DNA of 43,884 nt, taken from a virus. The stretch is from IMG/VR virus record IMGVR_UViG_3300037882_004961, positions 1-43,884 of that record. One strand, written 5' to 3'. This document shows positions 1-43,884 of the stretch, piece by piece (position 1 is the first letter of the stretch; every line of letters begins with the position of its first letter). The translations under genes were made by a program, and so were the position numbers. Below the pieces are notes generated by a model that searched no databases, had not been told where the DNA came from, and worked only from the letters and a program-made list of their open reading frames with translations.

Positions 1-99
1 TGTACCCAAAGCCGATTTTTAACAAAATCATAGAACCCTTTGCCGGTTCGGCTCGGTACGCCCTAAAATACTTTGACAGGGATGTTCTTCTTGTGGACA
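1..99. repeat. terminal redundancy, left copy
   Basis: This stretch is repeated exactly at 43786-43884. Joining the two copies restores one open reading frame for the D12 methyltransferase, so the window is a closed circle or circularly permuted genome with a 43,785-bp unit. A 99-bp overlap is also a typical assembler overlap length, so it need not be a physical terminal repeat. Confidence 0.95.
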
Positions 100-665
100 A
101 GTATGAGGCGGTGGTTCGCATCTGAAAGTTTTTACAACAATGTAGCCCCAAGGATATACTTGGATTGCCAAAGCTCACAAGGGGATTAGATTTAACATCC
201 TTGGGGCTTTCGGAGGACGAGGTTTTATTCTTGGGGTTCATTGCTGGAGCGGGGACTGCTGAACCGCGCAAAACTGTTAGCCCATTCGGTGCGTTTGTTG
301 GGAAAAGGCGTGCCAACACATACAAGCGTATCGCTGACAACCTGTACAAAATTAGGCATTGGGAGGTTCGGCTGGGTTCTTATGAGGATATTCCGAACCA
401 AGAGGCTACTTGGTACATTGACCCGCCTTATGTGTTTGGTGGAGAGGCTTACAAGAAAAGTTCTAAGAAGCTGGATTTTGGGAATTTGGCGGACTGGTGC
501 AAGGCTCGGATTGGGCAAAGTATTGTCTGCGAAAACATCAAAGCGGGCTGATTGCCCTTTAAGCCAATGGTTACCCGCAAAGGTGCATCCAACCTTTACA
601 ATACGGAGGCTATTTGGTCAAACCTGCCTACCAATTACGATTTTGTACAGGGCAACCTGTTTTAA
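1..665 (+). CDS. D12-class DNA N6-adenine methyltransferase, 3' part, reads UGA as Trp
   Basis: This is the main part of a 234-residue Dam-like enzyme whose first 13 codons lie at 43746-43785. It should methylate adenine in a short DNA target using S-adenosylmethionine. Visible motifs are FNYYGSK at the N terminus, motif I as PFAGSARYAL (residues 26-35) and the catalytic DPPY at residues 154-157. The frame is broken only by two TGA codons, at 123-125 (residue 55, before KFLQQ) and 549-551 (residue 197, in a G-W-LPF context typical of this family). It ends with TAA at 663-665. TGG is also used for Trp in the same gene. Read with a standard code the protein loses its C-terminal segment. A bidirectional terminator follows at once. 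The methyltransferase family is clear; the recoding is inferred from the motif fit. Confidence 0.88.
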
Positions 666-4792: not shown

Positions 4793-5689
4793 TTAAAAAA
4801 TCATTTGCATTTGTTCTTCTTCAGCTGCGAGCCGAGCGCGTCCTTGCTGGATGGTTATTCCTTGCTGGTAAGAGAAGCCCGTTTCCTGTTCCTTTTGGTG
4901 TATCCAGTCGGCAAGTTCGGGGTTGTGCTTGATACCATTCAAAAAATCATTCCTTGATGCGAGTACGCAGATTGCACAGCTTAAGCGAGTGTTGCCCATA
5001 GCATACGCAGGGTGGATTTTCCAATCATTGGGAACTGTGCCTAAGGTTTTGTATTGCCACCGCCCAAGGTTGTATTCGGATTCAGTCATCCCACAGGCTT
5101 CCAGCACATTTTGTTCGGTGTAGTTGATGATTGCGTTCCAAGTGAAACCCATAGAACCGCCTTTCTTTTTGAAGCCCGCCCTACGTTCAAAGATAGGTTT
5201 TTGGGAGCGGGCTTTTGACTCATCCCACCGAATTCCCTCAATGCTGATAAAGCGAGGGAATTGTTTTAGGTAGGCGTTGATTGGGTCGGTTTTTAGGTCG
5301 CTGGTGCAATACCTTTGCTGGAAGCTCGGATAGATGGGCGTTTTCTTTTCCCGTGCCTGTGCTTCCAGCTGGGCTTGTCTTAGTTCTATTTTGTCCAAAA
5401 GGTCAATCCTTTGCCCGTTGTGAGTTGCGAAAACTTCTACCAGCTCAATTTGGTAGGTTTCGCAGAGTTGGCGGACAAACCCGTTGGTTTGCGCCCATTC
5501 AGCACGCCCCAAGTCTGCGTGGATAGCAAATATTTTGTTGGTTAGGTTGTTGGCTTTGTACCAGCTCAACACGGACACGAGTAGCGCTTGGCTATCCTTT
5601 CCGCCTGAAATAGAAATAGCCAAAACAGCGCCTAAATTTACTTGCTCTGTAATATCAGCAGTCAGATATGGGGTTATGAATGGTTGCAT
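4793..5689 (-). CDS. PAPS-reductase-family PP-loop protein
   Basis: A 298-residue protein of the adenine-nucleotide alpha-hydrolase fold. Residues 26-36 hold the PP-loop SISGGKDSQAL, which binds the phosphates of an adenylyl group. Further landmarks are a CTSDLKTDP segment, GIRWDESKARSQ and a C-terminal CAIC pair. Phages often carry such proteins. Roles in sulfur transfer, in DndC-like DNA modification or in adenylylation are all known in the superfamily, and the sequence alone does not decide among them. An 8-nt gap separates it from the small coiled-coil gene upstream. Confidence 0.8.
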   Translation of the reverse strand: MQPFITPYLTADITEQVNLGAVLAISISGGKDSQALLVSVLSWYKANNLTNKIFAIHADLGRAEWAQTNGFVRQLCETYQIELVEVFATHNGQRIDLLDKIELRQAQLEAQAREKKTPIYPSFQQRYCTSDLKTDPINAYLKQFPRFISIEGIRWDESKARSQKPIFERRAGFKKKGGSMGFTWNAIINYTEQNVLEACGMTESEYNLGRWQYKTLGTVPNDWKIHPAYAMGNTRLSCAICVLASRNDFLNGIKHNPELADWIHQKEQETGFSYQQGITIQQGRARLAAEEEQMQMIF

Positions 5690-6745: not shown

Positions 6746-7139
6746 TCGTAGGGCTTTCTAGTTGGGTGGATACCGCTTTTTGTCCCAAGGCATAAGCGTA
6801 GGAATTTGGAATTTTTTCAAAAATCAAATGATAATACCAAGGCTGTAGTCCGTTGAGTGCTTTTATAACTAAACTATCCTCATGTACCATGAAAAGATTA
6901 CTTTCAAAGACTGGTCTCATTAGAAAGCGTATGGCTTGAGACTTGAGGTCGTATAATAAGAAATGGGCGCCTACAAACTCATTCAATCCATACAGATAAA
7001 TGTTGTAACAACAGCCGTATTCTAAGGGGTTGTTGGCAGTATCGCAGACTTGCCCAAAATTAGACAGGATATTATTCCAGTCTCTTATTGCTGTTTCGTA
7101 TAACCTGTCAAGGGTTAGGAAGCGTTTCGTTATATCCAT
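6720..7139 (-). CDS. hypothetical protein
   Basis: A 139-residue soluble protein rich in Tyr, Leu and Phe, without recognised motifs. The start chosen (ATG at 7139) overlaps the previous gene by 10 nt. Its 3' end overlaps the HNH gene start by 26 nt, so the three genes form a tightly packed unit. Confidence 0.7.
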   Translation of the reverse strand: MDITKRFLTLDRLYETAIRDWNNILSNFGQVCDTANNPLEYGCCYNIYLYGLNEFVGAHFLLYDLKSQAIRFLMRPVFESNLFMVHEDSLVIKALNGLQPWYYHLIFEKIPNSYAYALGQKAVSTQLESPTNAKVRDSQ

Positions 7140-8722: not shown

Positions 8723-10492
8723 TTATTTAAAATATTGGCGCATAAAATTCTCTGCAGTATTATAATCTGCAAAAAACAATTCCCAATCCGCTTGTTGGAA
8801 TTCTTTGGTTTCGGCTTCATATCGCATACTTATCCAGCTTTGCATTTCTTGAATGCGAGAAATATAAGGCAAGGCATCAGTAAAATCGTCGTCCTCCCAT
8901 AATTTCATTATGAATTGTTCATGTTTTATGGTAAGTGAAGCTTCTTTTTCAACTTTGGGCGCCGGTTGGAAAGTTTTGTAAGGTGCTGGAGAAGTTGCTG
9001 CTGTAATTTTGGTTTGGGTGGTCGGTGGATTTTTCGGGGCGGGCTTTGCTGGAGCTGGTGGGAAAATTACATTCCAAAATTCTGCAAAAATTGGGCTGCT
9101 AAGTATTGATGTGCTTTTACGCAAATCCAAAAAATAAGATTTGAGGCTTGGCGGAAAATATAGGGCGGTGCTGCTTGGGGCTACTTTCCAAATTGGGCTG
9201 CGCTTGGACTTCTCAACGTATTGCCCACCAGTTACCCATTTGCTAAAAAAGCCCATACGCTCCTGTACGCTGGAGCTTTCCGTTCTTGGTTTGACTGAAA
9301 GTTTATTGTCCACATTTTGTTTGATGTTTTGGTACTCAGCGCCAAGATACTTGGTAAGGTTTGCCAATATTCCAACAAAACCCGCCAAATCAACCCCAAC
9401 AGGCAACTGGGCAACAAAAGCCTTAAATTCGGTTTCGGGGTCTTGCATAAGCCCTCTGCCTGTTAGGGCGTTTCTTAAGCGATTTTCTTTGTCTCCATCC
9501 GCTGCATTTGCTTTCACCTCCCAAGTAAAGGCAGTCGCAAACGCAACCCAAAGGGCGCGGGCTTCTGCACTATCCAGCAGGCTATTAGAAACAACCTCCA
9601 CCGCGTGCTTTTGTACAAGTTTTTGGATGTTTTCCTCATACCAATCCAAAACCGCCCAAGGCTTACCGCTTTTCCCTTTGAGAGCTTGGTTCATGTACTC
9701 CACCAGCACAATATCGGGTGTTTTTTCCGCTTGGGCTTTGTTTAAAAATTTTTGCAATTCTATTTTTTTGGAATTTGCGTCTTTTTTGGTATTTTTTTTA
9801 ATAAAATATTCATTCAATAAAATCCCCAGCCCCTCCGATGCTTGGTAACCAGTTTCTGCAATCCAAGATTTCAATAAATCAGAATTCAAAACCAATTTTT
9901 CAAAACCAACGCCCAAGGTTGGACTTTTGACTCCTACTTTATTTACTTCTTTTATTACTTCTTCTTTACTTACTTCTTCTTTAATAAACGGTTGTTGTTT
10001 TCGTGCAATCGGGGTTGTTGTTTCCATGCAATCGGGGTTGTTGTTTTCGTGCAATCGGGGTTGTTGTTTTTGTGCAGGCGCGGTTGTTGTTTTTATACAA
10101 GCGCGGTTGTTGTTTTTATACAACCCCAAATTAATATTTTTTGCATCTGTTTCGGTGTTTTTGGTAATTATTTCAGCCAAAGCATCAACACCATCAGAAA
10201 CATTAAAAAACTTCAAAAGCCCACGCTCCGAATCTTTGCGGGTTTCGCACAACAATACGCCTACTTCCTTGAGGGTATCTATACAATTTTCCTGCAAAGA
10301 CCGCCCCATACCGATAGCATCTTCTATTTCTTTGAATTTGCAGTAAAACCATGGGTCTGTATAAAAGCTGGATTTGTTCACCAAAAAAGCGTAAAAGCAA
10401 GCAGCCTTAAACCCTACCTTTTGAATGAGCGGGAAAGGGAGTAGCATATAATTAGTATTGTTGAGGATAAGGTCTTGGATGTTCGTTTTCAT
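8723..10492 (-). CDS. replication initiator-like protein with intragenic repeats
   Basis: A 589-residue protein. Residues 1-115 resemble the winged-helix N-terminal domain of phage replisome organisers (FKAACFYAFLVNKS, then a KFKEIEDAIGMG recognition-helix region and LKEVGVLLC). Residues 123-168 are a low-complexity linker of NNN, TTT and QQP blocks encoded by 23-bp tandem DNA repeats. A Lys/Glu-rich segment (169-187) follows, encoded by AT-rich DNA. The C-terminal half is helical with a Pro-rich linker (about 470-510). The arrangement of DNA-binding domain, intragenic iterons, AT-rich tract and C-terminal partner domain is that of lambda O. The homology itself is inferred from layout. It has its own palindrome-linked promoter. 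Confidence 0.7.
   Translation of the reverse strand: MKTNIQDLILNNTNYMLLPFPLIQKVGFKAACFYAFLVNKSSFYTDPWFYCKFKEIEDAIGMGRSLQENCIDTLKEVGVLLCETRKDSERGLLKFFNVSDGVDALAEIITKNTETDAKNINLGLYKNNNRACIKTTTAPAQKQQPRLHENNNPDCMETTTPIARKQQPFIKEEVSKEEVIKEVNKVGVKSPTLGVGFEKLVLNSDLLKSWIAETGYQASEGLGILLNEYFIKKNTKKDANSKKIELQKFLNKAQAEKTPDIVLVEYMNQALKGKSGKPWAVLDWYEENIQKLVQKHAVEVVSNSLLDSAEARALWVAFATAFTWEVKANAADGDKENRLRNALTGRGLMQDPETEFKAFVAQLPVGVDLAGFVGILANLTKYLGAEYQNIKQNVDNKLSVKPRTESSSVQERMGFFSKWVTGGQYVEKSKRSPIWKVAPSSTALYFPPSLKSYFLDLRKSTSILSSPIFAEFWNVIFPPAPAKPAPKNPPTTQTKITAATSPAPYKTFQPAPKVEKEASLTIKHEQFIMKLWEDDDFTDALPYISRIQEMQSWISMRYEAETKEFQQADWELFFADYNTAENFMRQYFK
9935..9989. other. AT-rich strand-asymmetric tract, possible DNA unwinding element
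   Basis: This tract is almost pure T, A and C on the plus strand, with repeated TTACTTCTT units and few G. It lies directly beside the six 23-bp repeats inside the initiator-like gene. In lambda the equivalent AT-rich segment beside the iterons melts first. Confidence 0.5.
9990..10127. repeat. six 23-bp tandem repeats, probable origin iterons
   Basis: Units start at 9990, 10013, 10036, 10059, 10082 and 10105. Each begins with GGTTGTTGTTT, and most continue as TCGTGCAATCGG. The period of 23 bp is not a multiple of three, so the gene reads successive units in all three frames (NNN, TTT, QQP). Selection therefore seems to act on the DNA, not on the peptide. The period is near two helical turns, as expected for protein-binding iterons. 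Confidence 0.85.
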
Positions 10493-18082: not shown

Positions 18083-18411
18083 TGTCCCAAAAAATTAGGT
18101 ATCCCAAAATAACAAAAGCCCAAATTATGGAGGCTTGGAATAGGCTTGCCAAAGAGTGTAAACGTACAGGGCAAAATATGCCTTTGGAAGTTTTCCCTAC
18201 AAGGGTGGAAGATAATAGGCTCATAGGCTACATTATTGACCAACCCGACATACTGTACGAAACAGATAGTTTAGTTTCTTACCGCTCATATTGTGATGAG
18301 GGAATTATAAAAACGCTTTCACCAAGACAAATTCCAGCAACCATTTGGGAGTTTGATACTTCCACAGATTTTTTTAACACCATAAACCCACCCGAATCCG
18401 ATGCAAAGTAA
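18082..18411 (+). CDS. hypothetical protein, paralogue of previous gene
   Basis: A 109-residue protein with the W-x-R/L-x6-KRTG helix motif shared with the gene before it, then beta-type strands. Not recognised. It overlaps the nucleoside kinase start by 11 nt. Confidence 0.7.
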   Translation: MSQKIRYPKITKAQIMEAWNRLAKECKRTGQNMPLEVFPTRVEDNRLIGYIIDQPDILYETDSLVSYRSYCDEGIIKTLSPRQIPATIWEFDTSTDFFNTINPPESDAK

Positions 18412-19213
18412 CAAAATGTATATTATTTCTGTATCAGGCCCCATTGCAGCAGGCAAAAGTACCTTTTTGGAAGCCTTTGAGCCAAGGTTCAAATATGAAA
18501 TGGGAGAGCTTAGCCCTAAAATTTGGTTCATGCAAGAGCCTCAATTTTTCAAAGGTTCACAATCCCACGAGCTGGCAGCGGAATATTTCGGAATTACCAC
18601 CGAAACGCCCAAGGATAAAGCTCAAGATATTGTGTATAGGTTTCAGCTCGCTATGCTTCACGACCGCGCAAAGCATATGCAGGAAGCCCAAAACAAAGAT
18701 TGCGCAATTTTCGTAATGGAGCGGTCTCCTTTGGAGGATGAGTTCTTCTGGGATAATTTGCATCAACGGGGCTTACTTTCTGCAAGGGATTTAGCTATTT
18801 TACATAATACAAGGGAGCACCTTTTTGGTGAAGATTTTGCGGTGGATGTGCTTATCAATATCAACATACCCGCCAAGGATGCGTACCAAAACGCGCTGAA
18901 CCGTGCTAAAAGGAACAACGACCGCGCTCCCGAACTAAACGTGTTCCCAATGGAAACCTACGAGCTTATGCACGATTGGTATTTTGGGTTTACAATTAGG
19001 GCTATTTTGGCGGGGTCGGCGCTTGTGGAGGTGCAGTTTTCAAAATTGGTGGAGGATTTGGAAGGTGAAGTGAACAGGATTTGCGAAAAAATACCAAGAC
19101 ACATTTTATTCGGTGGCTTTTTTGATTGTGCGGATGATGTTATTACTCCAGCTTGGACAAACTTGACCGGCTTAATGGACTTGGACGATTCTGAACTCTT
19201 TGAACCTCAATAA
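18401..19213 (+). CDS. deoxynucleoside kinase
   Basis: A 270-residue kinase of the dCK/dGK/TK2 type that phosphorylates deoxynucleosides to monophosphates with ATP in the cytoplasm, supporting phage DNA synthesis. Visible marks: P-loop GPIAAGKST (residues 13-21), the ERSPLEDEFFW segment corresponding to the family's (D/E)RS motif, and an Arg-rich lid (NRAKRNNDRAPE). A second in-frame ATG at 18416 is an equally good start and lies closer to the first strand. The C-terminal 60 residues are longer than in minimal family members. The enzyme family is clear; the preferred base is unknown. Confidence 0.85.
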   Translation: MQSNKMYIISVSGPIAAGKSTFLEAFEPRFKYEMGELSPKIWFMQEPQFFKGSQSHELAAEYFGITTETPKDKAQDIVYRFQLAMLHDRAKHMQEAQNKDCAIFVMERSPLEDEFFWDNLHQRGLLSARDLAILHNTREHLFGEDFAVDVLININIPAKDAYQNALNRAKRNNDRAPELNVFPMETYELMHDWYFGFTIRAILAGSALVEVQFSKLVEDLEGEVNRICEKIPRHILFGGFFDCADDVITPAWTNLTGLMDLDDSELFEPQ

Positions 19214-20053: not shown

Positions 20054-20356
20054 ATGTGCGAATTCCATATCCCGCTTCAAGCAAAGCGCCCACCACAAGA
20101 CCCCGAATTTAACACCCCCATTTGGGTGGGTATATTTGGCAGCCCGCCCGTTCAATCTCTACTAACTGAAAATGAGATGATGAAACTGAAGCTAATGCAC
20201 CCACAAGACCCCGAATTTGAAGAGCAACGAGGTATAGGGCGGGTAAGGATTGCCGCCCAACAAATCCTTTTAAACGCAACCAACAATCTTAAACGTAACA
20301 TTCACATTTTAGAAATCATCAACGATGACAAAACAAACTCAAAACCTTACCTATAA
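20054..20356 (+). CDS. hypothetical protein
   Basis: A 100-residue protein with the phrase PQDPEF appearing twice (residues about 13-18 and 50-55), hinting at a short internal duplication. No catalytic motif. It overlaps the next gene by 32 nt. Confidence 0.68.
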   Translation: MCEFHIPLQAKRPPQDPEFNTPIWVGIFGSPPVQSLLTENEMMKLKLMHPQDPEFEEQRGIGRVRIAAQQILLNATNNLKRNIHILEIINDDKTNSKPYL

Positions 20357-20693
20357 GCAAGCCGCTGATATAGCCCGCCAAAAAGGTTATCTATTTACCC
20401 GTGATTCCTACAATGGTAAAGCGCTATTTTTCCGCCCTGGACACCATACAACGGCTGGGGCAATTCAGAATTACACAAGCGCTCCCGATTTGCTAAAGGA
20501 AGTGCTCAATAACATGGATGCTGATACTCCTGTGGAGTTTAGCGATTACCTTTGCATAGCAGATGTATCCGTGAATGGGAAAGTAACCATTGGGCAAAAC
20601 TTTCTACCATCATACAAAGACGTACACGCTTATGATTGGAAGCTTATAACGGATGCGAACCTTTCATCATTTATCAAATTAGCCCACGACTAA
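20325..20693 (+). CDS. hypothetical protein
   Basis: A 122-residue soluble protein with a helix near the start (TYKQAADIARQKGY), then beta-type and aromatic-rich segments. Helix-then-sheet order recalls small DNA-binding or modifier proteins, but nothing specific is recognised. Confidence 0.7.
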   Translation: MTKQTQNLTYKQAADIARQKGYLFTRDSYNGKALFFRPGHHTTAGAIQNYTSAPDLLKEVLNNMDADTPVEFSDYLCIADVSVNGKVTIGQNFLPSYKDVHAYDWKLITDANLSSFIKLAHD

Positions 20694-20959: not shown

Positions 20960-20962
20960 AAT

Positions 20963-21001
20963 AAAAACGCCTGCCTATCCAAAGATAAGCAGGCGTTTTT
21001 T
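20963..21001. terminator. bidirectional terminator
   Basis: AAAAACGCCTGC (20963-20974) pairs with GCAGGCGTTTTT (20989-21000) around a 14-nt loop, with T runs on both strands. It closes the rightward module and backs up the leftward terminator at 21160-21194. Confidence 0.88.
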
Positions 21002-21159
21002 GGTTGCCAAATTTCCTTATTGACAACCAGCCCAGAGCTAGTACACGGGGACTTTCGTGCGCTCATTCTTACTTGAAGCTCGTGAAGGTTTCGCTCCTCC
21101 TATGTAAAGGCGTTTACTTCACAACAGCACGCTTTACACTCACAACTATGCACCGAGCC
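21002..21159. other. non-coding gap between converging modules
   Basis: I find no convincing gene here. A frame from a TTG at 21004 to a TGA at 21196-21198 has no good start and low protein likeness. There is no obvious repeat or promoter. It could hold a small RNA, but nothing shows this. Confidence 0.5.
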
Positions 21160-21194
21160 AAAAAACGCCTAAGGGAGTTCTACACAATAGGCGT
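21160..21194 (-). terminator. leftward terminator after the tRNA-like gene
   Basis: On the minus strand ACGCCTA pairs with TAGGCGT (7 bp, 16-nt loop) and is followed by TTTTTT. It lies about 75 nt downstream of the tRNA-like gene and probably ends the whole structural transcript. Confidence 0.75.
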
Positions 21195-21269
21195 GTGATT
21201 ATCAAATAAGGTTTAGGACAGTTGCACAAACCAAAGCACAATATGATACCAAACGTTACGGAAAAATCG

Positions 21270-21364
21270 TGGGAATGCAGGGATTTGAACCCCGAATAAT
21301 GTCTACCTTTTTTGGTTTCACCGCAAAGGTAGGAGCTTTCGTCGCCAATTAAGCTATCATTCCC
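21270..21364 (-). tRNA. tRNA-like gene with abnormal anticodon arm
   Basis: Read on the minus strand this 95-nt stretch has a perfect 7-bp acceptor stem (GGGAATG/CATTCCC, discriminator A, no encoded CCA), a D arm (AGCTT/AAGCT with GG in the loop) and a T arm CGGGG-TTCAAAT-CCCTG. The anticodon stem CTACC/GGTAG is perfect but encloses 20 nt (TTTGCGGTGAAACCAAAAAA) rather than 7. There is also one extra base between acceptor and D stem. No anticodon can be assigned with confidence. A UCA anticodon, which would read UGA, is not present in the loop. It may need processing, be an unusual tRNA, or be a decayed copy. Confidence 0.6.
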
Positions 21365-21419
21365 GACCAGCTTTTCACTAGCCTTTAAATTATCTAACGG
21401 CAAATATATAAATAGTGTT

Positions 21420-21884
21420 TCATTTGCCACTAAAATTTTGTAACATTTTTTTTAAATCTTCGTGCAGGCTCTTTTGAGCGTCCGTATTCCTATCCAAAGC
21501 AGCCTTTAAGTCTTCGTGTGTATGCTTATTAGTTTCGGTGTTTCTATCCACCGCCTCCTTATTATCATCTACAGCCTTTTCCACCGCTACCTGTCGGCTA
21601 TCCAATTTATCCAATAAAACCCTGTTTGCTTCCAATATTTGGGGAATTGCTCCAATAACCTTGTTATTATCCAAAATTGATGTCTTGAGCACCCAAATTA
21701 GCCCCGCAATGAGTATCCCCACCGTGCTGGTACCCAACGGGTCGGATGTTAGGCTATTACCCGCCTGTGTGGTCGGATGTTCGGGTTGGATACTTTGGGC
21801 AATCGCAGGGATAGCCACAGACAAAATGATAAGCACCACGCAAATACAGAGTAAAATGTTGATTTTGATATTTAAATTTTTCAT
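21420..21884 (-). CDS. holin-like membrane protein
   Basis: A 154-residue protein with an N-terminal signal or anchor (about residues 8-29, ILLCICVVLIILSVAIPAIA) and a second span at about 53-70, then a long charged helix (75-150) with near repeats (DLKAALDRNTDAQKSLHEDL). Position at the end of the virion operon and topology suggest a holin or spanin-like role; this is inference. It ends with TGA at 21420-21422; if UGA is read as Trp here, nine further residues follow before TAA at 21390-21392. Confidence 0.62.
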   Translation of the reverse strand: MKNLNIKINILLCICVVLIILSVAIPAIAQSIQPEHPTTQAGNSLTSDPLGTSTVGILIAGLIWVLKTSILDNNKVIGAIPQILEANRVLLDKLDSRQVAVEKAVDDNKEAVDRNTETNKHTHEDLKAALDRNTDAQKSLHEDLKKMLQNFSGK

Positions 21885-21955: not shown

Positions 21956-22378
21956 TTATAATTCGGTACTTGCCTTAAATTCCGTTCATGCAGGGAATTT
22001 TTCCGCCAATGCTTGCCCCAATAGGCTAGCCTCAAAGTCCGCTTTGTCCTTGATGCGAGCTTCGTTGGCGGTTGCATCTGTTAGGACTGCACTCAGCTGA
22101 ACCATAAATTCAGCGTATATTGTTCCCATTCCATCCCATTTGGTTTGCGCTGCTGTAAGCCGAGCTTGTTGCTTCGTTTTTTGAGCCTGCAGCGATAAGA
22201 TGATGTTGTTGTGATTGCCGATTTGAACCGCTTGTGCTGGAATAGCGGGGTTCAGCAGCGCAATTGCAGCTTGATTTTTGGAGATATTGGCATCTGTTGC
22301 CTCTATATCCTTTAGGGCGCTGTTGAGTTGTGCAAAGGCAGCACTCAGCAGTAGAAATTTGGAATATGCTTTTAGCAT
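21956..22378 (-). CDS. hypothetical helical virion-module protein, possible UGA read-through
   Basis: A helical, Ala-rich protein of 130 residues up to a TGA at 21986-21988, or 140 residues if that UGA is read as Trp (extension W-TEFKASTELL, ending TAA at 21956-21958). The terminator hairpin begins right after the TAA, which slightly favours the longer form. The N terminus (LLLSAAFAQLNSALKD) may be a signal-like or amphipathic helix. Residues 60-100 are likely coiled coil. Function not recognised. Confidence 0.62.
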
Positions 22379-42407: not shown

Positions 42408-42436
42408 TTGACATTTAAAATAAAAATATACTTTTG
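42408..42436 (+). promoter_or_regulatory. Bacteroidetes-type promoter of the methyltransferase unit
   Basis: TTG (42408-42410), 18 nt, TACTTTTG (42429-42436), an exact match to TAnnTTTG. It lies 39 nt before the ATG at 42476 and faces away from the terminase operon. No matching promoter for the leftward operon is clear in the same gap. Confidence 0.75.
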
Positions 42437-42475: not shown

Positions 42476-43705
42476 ATGCTTTTATCAGATTTAAAACAAA
42501 GTGCCAAAAACCCGCGCAAAATTAGCAGGGAAAACTTGGACAAGCTCAAGAAGAGCATTAGTGAATTCCCTAAGGGGATGGAGTTTCGGGGTATCGTTTA
42601 CGACGATTGAACGAAAGAAATTTTAATCGGGAATCAACGGTACAAGGCTCTGTTAGAGCTTGGATATACCGAGATTCCCGACAGCTGAACGCGTCCTGCT
42701 TCTTCACTTACAGAGGACGAGAAAAAACGGCTGCAAATCCTTGACAACGTATCTTATGGTTCATGGGATGCTGATATTTTGGCAAATGATTGGGATTTTT
42801 CGGAGCTTGAGAATTGGGCGGTGGATTTTGCCTTTGAGGACATCCAAATACCGCAAATTGATGAGGAGCTTTTCGGTATGGAAGATGCAGACCCAACCAT
42901 TGGGGATGATGATTTTGAGATGCCAGACCCGAAAGAGATTAAAACGGATATTGTGGCTGGGGACTTGCTGGAGATTGGTTCGCACAGGCTAATTTGTGGC
43001 TCGTGTACCGAATCTGCTACCTTTGCCCAGCTTATGCAGGACAAGCAAGCCGACCTTATCCTTACCGACCCACCATACAACGTAAATTATCAAGGAGGAG
43101 CAGCGAAAAACCGCGCCAAAATTGCTAATGACAATTTGTCGGATGAGCATTTTGAACAATTCCTAAACAAATTCTACTCGCTTTCAGCAGCCCACACCAA
43201 AAAGGGCGCGGCTTGGTATGTGTTCCACGCAGATAGTGCTGGGTACATTTTCCGAAACGAAATGAAAAAAGCGGGGATTAGCCTAAAGCAATGTTTGATT
43301 TGGGTTAAGCAGCATTTTGTTTTAGGAAGGCAGGACTACCAGTGGCAACACGAACCTATCCTGTACGGCTGAATAGAGGGAAAGGCTCACAAGTGAAGAG
43401 CAGACCGCAAACAAACGACCATACTCAATTTTGACAAGCCACAGCGCAACGCTGAGCACCCTACCATGAAACCCATTGAGCTACTCGCTTACCTTATGGG
43501 GAATTCCTCCGATACTGGAGATGTGGTCTTAGACCCTTTCTTAGGGAGTGGGAGCACAATGGTAGCGGCTGAACAATTGGGGCGGGTTTGTTTCGGGGTG
43601 GAATTAGAGCCAAAATACTGCCAAGTAATTGTTGAGCGTATGAAACGGCTAAACCCCGAATTGGAGGTCAAAAAGAACGGGGTGGTTTGGGATACAACAT
43701 GATAA
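42476..43705 (+). CDS. ParB-domain/DNA methyltransferase fusion, reads UGA as Trp
   Basis: A 409-residue protein when UGA is read as Trp. Residues 1-110 are ParB/Srx-like (NPRKISRENLDKLKKSISE, IGNQRYKALLELGY). Residues 160-409 are a beta-class N4/N6 methyltransferase with catalytic DPPY (198-201) and AdoMet-binding DPFLGSGS (353-360). In-frame TGA codons are at 42608 (residue 45), 42686 (71), 43370 (299), 43394 (307) and 43700 (409), followed by TAA at 43703. Residues 299 and 307 fit the family's conserved HEPILYGW...AHKW pattern. With a standard code the catalytic and AdoMet motifs fall on separate fragments, so an active enzyme needs the recoding. TGG codons for Trp occur as well. Confidence 0.88.
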
Positions 43706-43745
43706 CAAAAAAGGGCTTGTCAGGCCCTGGTAAGTATTTGCGCAA

Positions 43746-43884
43746 ATGTTCAACTATTACGGTTCTAAATCAAAGATAATCCACCTGTACCCAAAGCCGA
43801 TTTTTAACAAAATCATAGAACCCTTTGCCGGTTCGGCTCGGTACGCCCTAAAATACTTTGACAGGGATGTTCTTCTTGTGGACA
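43746..43884 (+). CDS. D12-class DNA methyltransferase, 5' part
   Basis: Start of the D12 adenine methyltransferase (MFNYYGSKSKIIHLYPKP). It continues across the circular join to 1-665, bases 43786-43884 being the repeated copy. It lies 40 nt after the TAA of the ParB-methyltransferase, in the same direction; a short 5-bp hairpin (43712-43728) in the gap has no T run, so the two are probably cotranscribed. Confidence 0.88.
   Translation, partial: MFNYYGSKSKIIHLYPKPIFNKIIEPFAGSARYALKYFDRDVLLVD
43786..43884. repeat. terminal redundancy, right copy
   Basis: Exact copy of bases 1-99; see the left copy. Confidence 0.95.

Follow-up and report, generated by a model that had tools for sequence, protein, structure and literature searches.

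Recoding of UGA to tryptophan is already known in phages. In the TGA-recoded phages of the Bacteroidota, it falls mostly on late structural and lysis genes (PMC10136315, PMC12386605), and a suppressor tRNA matching the TGA recoding is present in only 35% of TGA-recoded genomes (review PMC10136315). In the zeta crAss-like phages, Lera among them (PMC12386605; PMC10136315), UGA stands for Trp at conserved Trp columns, the host probably uses the standard code and a suppressor tRNA often goes unfound; both the placement of UGA and the unfound suppressor recur in the phage described here. Lera itself (PMC12386605) has 41 recoded ORFs, among which late structural and lysis functions predominate, and it carries a tRNA-Sup-TCA, whereas our phage, of ~44 kb, has clean late genes, holds nearly all of its recoding in two methyltransferases and contains no recognisable suppressor. 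The code-11-compatible phages of Gracilibacteria and Absconditabacteria (PMC10746230) offer a different likeness, in that they too are nearly TGA-free and readable under two codes, but they have no genes with in-frame TGA and UGA means Gly in their hosts, whereas here two genes need UGA to be read as Trp. A search of the open-access literature found no earlier report of a TGA-poor genome with two recoded methyltransferase genes, and the novelty of the present case lies in the recoding of two adjacent methyltransferases within a nearly TGA-free genome, stable over a long divergence.

The window, that is, the whole stretch of 43,884 nucleotides analysed here, begins and ends with the same 99 bases (1-99 = 43786-43884), which leaves a circular length of 43,785 bases (~43.8 kb). 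A second phage genome, IMG/VR 3300046331_000696 (hereafter G001), is collinear with it; its ends match at 166 of 170 bases, and its length is ~42.7 kb. Given these near-identical ends, both genomes look complete and circular, and the window record probably represents an entire genome, circular or circularly permuted. Relatives of the terminase, at ~30% identity, are mostly phages of Bacteroides and Flavobacterium, and both phages have ahead of the methylase gene a TTG-TAnnTTTG element, the Bacteroidota-type promoter consensus, a match that is weak alone, as such sites number 14 against an expected 9. From these two weak lines the host can only be guessed; it likely belongs to the Bacteroidota, and a genome scan for hosts bearing the Dam-like gene described below returned none. 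Elsewhere the window encodes a PAPS reductase-like protein (4793-5689, - strand), a deoxynucleoside kinase (18401-19213, + strand) and, at 20325-20693 (+ strand), a protein with a weak Tad2-like (anti-Thoeris) match slightly under the Pfam cut-off. An HNH-like frame has TAG at 6758-6760 (- strand) where G001 has TGG, and the window gene may begin at a later ATG.

The first of the two recoded genes and its associated features are the following:

42408..42436, + strand: promoter-like TTG-18-TAnnTTTG, 40 bases 5' of the methyltransferase gene, with a counterpart at the equivalent place in G001
42476..43705, + strand: gene for a beta-class DNA methyltransferase (N6-adenine or N4-cytosine) preceded by a ParB-like domain; it holds four internal TGA codons and ends in TGA-TAA
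42608..42610, + strand: TGA codon 45, TGA in G001 too
42686..42688, + strand: TGA codon 71, TGG (Trp) in the G001 column
43370..43372, + strand: TGA codon 299, likewise TGA in G001; all 80 relatives have Trp here
43394..43396, + strand: TGA codon 307, likewise TGA in G001; 66 of the 80 relatives have Trp here
43700..43702, + strand: TGA codon 409, immediately 5' of the TAA in the window and in G001

The frame runs from ATG to TAA, the latter being codon 410 after 409 residues; it includes seven TGG codons and is free of internal TAA, TAG and frameshifts. This agrees with the first-pass annotation, which had reported five TGA codons in an otherwise intact 409-codon frame without TAA or TAG, and the second genome has such a frame as well. 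The remark that the last TGA is backed by a TAA likewise applies to both phages. Since codon 409 abuts the TAA, however, only four TGAs of this gene are informative; codon 409 may be a terminal Trp or one half of a tandem stop, and the use of all five codons as evidence is upheld for codons 45, 71, 299 and 307 and given up for codon 409.

The product appears to combine a ParB-like N-terminal domain with a beta-class N6/N4 DNA methyltransferase. It matches Pfam PF01555 (N6_N4_Mtase) with 100.6 bits, and DPPY (residues 198-201) lies N-terminal to FLGSG (residues 355-359), the DPPY-before-FxGxG order of the beta class. An AlphaFold model with a mean pLDDT of 80 shows two domains, the methyltransferase part of which matches M1.HpyAVI and CcrM. 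The ParB_N match reaches 21.3 bits in the window protein, under the cut-off of 26.3, and 28.8 bits, above it, in a relative (L003). The methyltransferase part of the fusion proposed at first sight is thus borne out by domain match, motifs and model, as is the claim that the two motifs would fall on separate peptides if UGA were not recoded: codons 299 and 307 sit between DPPY and FLGSG, and a stop there would part them.

The protein resembles the phage ParB-domain DNA methyltransferases of the N6_N4_Mtase family in domain order and motifs and has ~40-55% identity to many of them. Only one of its 80 IMG/VR relatives is close, namely the protein borne by G001 (L002), which is 74% identical over the entire length; unlike the window gene, the 79 others are devoid of TGA, with 658 TGG codons and 0 TGA. 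The close relative has TGA at the columns of codons 45, 299, 307 and 409, TGG at 71 and a further TGA at 114, where the window has TGG, and its frame contains no stops besides those TGAs and no frameshifts. Column 299, in the HEPILYG-W motif, closes a strand of the methyltransferase domain according to the AlphaFold model and is Trp in all 80 relatives, and column 307 (AHK-W) is Trp in 66 and Phe in 14, so that these positions are indeed normally Trp, as had been claimed. Residues 45 and 71 belong to a variable N-terminal part in which the relatives mostly have a gap or a non-Trp residue. They hence provide no test of the Trp assignment, and the alignment of TGA columns suggested as a check speaks for Trp at 299 and, allowing for the Phe-bearing relatives, at 307, but not at 45 or 71.

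Recoding extends past the gene originally noted to the adjoining Dam-like gene, which is split by the window ends and was for this reason hard to notice at first reading:

43746..43884, + strand: 5' part of a Dam-like (D12) N6-adenine methyltransferase gene, running on at window position 1
1..665, + strand: remainder of the gene (235 codons in total), with TGA codons 55 (123-125) and 197 (549-551)

Its protein has a MethyltransfD12 domain (25.9 bits, cut-off 22) and falls under the NCBIfam threshold for Dam proper. Codons 55 and 197 are TGA in both phages, and the corresponding columns are Trp in 10 of 10 other relatives. A short hairpin (AGGGC/GCCCT) is found between the two methylase genes, at window 43712-43732 (+ strand), and is also present, with changes, in G001. 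Similarity between the two phages climbs along the operon, from a dS of about 2-3 in the first gene to 0.55 in the Dam-like gene, a gradient that suggests past recombination close to the latter.

The carriers of this feature are two genomes only, the window and G001, which may or may not stem from separate samples. A scan with a degenerate pattern for TGA at the equivalent of column 299 in further methylases gave one true match, G001, its other hits (L105-L108) being unrelated chance matches, and the TAA/TAG variant of the scan gave none. Further members sought through the Dam-like gene, the terminase, a replication-region protein (8723-10492) and the gene at 21986-22378 yielded just G001 or TGA-free relatives. 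A TGA in the G001 counterpart of 8723-10492 is an artefact of joined overlapping contig ends and was excluded.

The location of TGA at conserved Trp columns indicates that UGA stands for Trp, and we consider this assignment almost certain for the two methyltransferase genes. Selection on the two proteins was gauged from dN/dS between the window and G001, computed by the Nei-Gojobori method. The ratio is 0.084 for the first gene, with a dS of about 2.3 (near saturation) and a pS of 0.71, and 0.079 for the Dam-like gene, with a dS of 0.55. Long stretches on either side of the TGAs of the first gene give values of 0.06-0.08 where computable, and the ratio stays low after the last informative TGA of each gene (0.067 over residues 308-409 in the first methyltransferase and 0.025 over residues 197-235 in the Dam-like protein). 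These comparisons point to strong purifying selection, under which both phages have kept the same TGAs in spite of their divergence. A selenoprotein, with UGA read as Sec, was discarded on the grounds that the TGA columns are Trp and not Sec or Cys, and programmed readthrough of a single stop was set aside because there are several UGAs per gene (four informative ones in the first and two in the second), with all the kept ones inside domains.

Within the two methylases, the alignment of the phages comprises 10 TGG:TGG, 6 TGA:TGA and 2 mixed pairs, and, of the Trp codons, TGA makes up 7 of 18 in the window and 7 of 19 in G001 if the terminal TGA is counted. The next base is A at five of six informative TGAs in the window and at five of six in G001, and no TGG of either gene precedes an A. 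This could suggest a readthrough context in which UGA is used only before A, but the codons for Lys, Glu, Gln, Leu and Arg show an equal bias: across all predicted genes of both phages, two-fold codons ending in A or G prefer the A-ending form before A, with an odds ratio of 2-3. Because this bias is general in both phages, we do not read the A after TGA as a signal; it is what plain synonymy of TGA and TGG within the two genes would give.

How far recoding reaches beyond these genes cannot be read directly from gene calls under table 11, which end at every TGA and produce genes that are TGA-free partly by construction. A tblastx comparison of the window and G001 under code 4 was therefore used instead, keeping stretches free of TAA and TAG; it covers conserved stretches only, amounting to 3,724 codons outside both methylases. 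In these codons there are 42 TGG:TGG pairs, no TGA:TGG pair and one uncertain TGA:TGA pair, and the late genes tile under table 11 with short gaps only. Sense TGA across many genes, mainly late ones, as seen in code-4 phages, was thus encountered neither in the code-4 tblastx nor in the tiling of the late genes. A single further candidate emerged:

21956..22378, - strand: possible third recoded gene, with TGA at 21986-21988, then nine codons (TEFKASTEL) and a TAA

G001 shares this TGA together with six of the nine residues that extend the gene at 21986-22378, the proteins of the two phages being 48% identical, and no relatives other than G001 were found. This TGA may be a third case of UGA read as Trp, in which event recoding would not be limited to the methylases, or it may precede a conserved non-coding stretch. 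On the whole, it is very probable that recoding is restricted to both methylases and perhaps one gene more.

The same observations bear on the possibility of an ordinary genome-wide code 4, whereby UGA means Trp in every gene of the host and the phages are recent arrivals that obtained their methylases from a lineage long adapted to this code, TGA having yet to enter their remaining genes. Such a history would fit the small number of genes that end in TGA, which, methylases apart, are 2 of the 43 predicted in the window and 5 of 42 in G001, as well as the conserved extension past the TGA in the gene at 21986-22378. It would also fit the description of TGA-avoiding, two-code phages for recoded hosts (PMC10746230) and the lower share of A-ending Lys, Glu and Gln codons in the window methylases with respect to other genes (0.50 vs 0.65). 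Nonetheless, the two phages are far apart, with dS above 1 in the other shared genes for which it was estimated, and yet in the conserved coding stretches outside the methylases neither uses TGA for Trp, bar one uncertain codon. Moreover, the PAPS reductase gene of G001 stops at a TGA that is aligned to the TAA of the window, the codon usage of the methylases lies inside the range of both phages' own genes, and recoded Bacteroidota are not named in the available portion of a large bacterial survey (PMC13092985). We therefore regard a genome-wide code 4 as unlikely, and a code change concentrated in the methylation genes as the better account.

If UGA is read as Trp in these genes, something must decode it. 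ARAGORN detects nothing in the window; in G001 it reports a single odd tRNA, assigned to Ile, and this element also matches the Rfam tRNA model with 45.2 bits. The window has a syntenic counterpart:

21271..21363, - strand: tRNA-like element, 24.6 bits against the Rfam cut-off of 29, syntenic with the G001 element

A transcript-like unit (window 20960-21440, - strand; L084 11850-12310, + strand) encloses the tRNA-like element with its abnormal anticodon arm. The phage might hence have a decoder of its own, a strongly diverged suppressor tRNA, perhaps this very unit, that tRNA finders miss. In keeping with this notion, the element is syntenic in both phages and lies in each between a promoter-like stretch and a terminator-like hairpin that the two have in common, and recoded phages without a detected suppressor tRNA are common, as the figure of 35% cited above attests (PMC10136315; see PMC12386605). 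However, neither element has UCA or CCA at the anticodon place, the anticodon arms differ between the phages, and the normal 7-base loop is missing. The base 3' of the acceptor stem is A, whereas bacterial tRNA-Trp has G as the base after the acceptor stem. Furthermore, a dedicated scan for UCA and CCA tRNAs produced chance-level candidates only, scoring at most 22 against 27 for the control. A decoder encoded by the phage is, on this balance, quite improbable.

Pfam likewise identifies no release factor or tRNA ligase among ~40 of the proteins of the window and, since a recognisable suppressor tRNA, release factor or tRNA ligase is lacking, the decoder is probably supplied in trans. A conceivable source is illustrated by a tRNA-Trp(CCA) with a 4-bp anticodon stem that acts as a UGA reader (PMC13092985). 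A tRNA of this kind would give a host UGA-to-Trp decoding without a UCA tRNA.

Decoding in trans must also be weighed against basal leaky reading of UGA by the normal tRNA-Trp, the UGAs merely holding methylase output very low. UGA is the leakiest stop, and UGA-A is slightly leakier than UGA-T in E. coli (PMC10959953), which would agree with the A next to most informative TGAs were it not that this A fits the general codon bias of the phages. At ~1% per codon (PMC10959953), moreover, four UGAs in series would let through about one chain per hundred million; selection hardly sees so little product, yet dN/dS is 0.07 past the last UGA, and leaky reading becomes a very remote prospect. Finally, pseudogenes, sequencing error or assembly error are scarcely credible, for in-frame stops are the usual sign of decay, but the same TGAs, found only at Trp, recur in two genomes whose synonymous sites mostly differ, and two genes free of TAA, TAG and frameshifts evolve with a dN/dS of about 0.08, all of which reinforces the initial contention that the placement at Trp positions speaks against decay.

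The reading that we favour, with moderate confidence and leaving aside any lock purpose, is that UGA is read as Trp largely within the two methylases and decoded in trans. Two adjacent phage methyltransferase genes would be written with UGA as an ordinary Trp codon, with little or none of it in other genes, and UGA would be efficiently decoded by a tRNA or an altered release supplied by the host or by a co-resident element. Full-length methylases would then be made only where and when UGA means Trp, the remaining genome being translatable under either code, and the UGA codons would act as a translational lock on the modification of phage (or host) DNA. That these codons lock methylation and are decoded in trans is put forward here tentatively. 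It is possible, in the same measure, that in this lineage the genes for replication and the virion stay in the standard code and the methylation operon is readable only where UGA is Trp, by means of a decoder that the phage does not encode.

The current view is that phages recode stop codons as a means of timing their late lytic genes. The two complete-looking small genomes described here make it testable what reads UGA and why DNA modification, instead of lysis, should be gated. Our results also suggest that, with nearly all genes looking normal, cases of this kind would escape tests for recoding that are applied genome-wide. If the interpretation is true, the two methylases would embody a genetic-code lock placed on one function, to be opened by a decoder from a host variant or a co-resident element.
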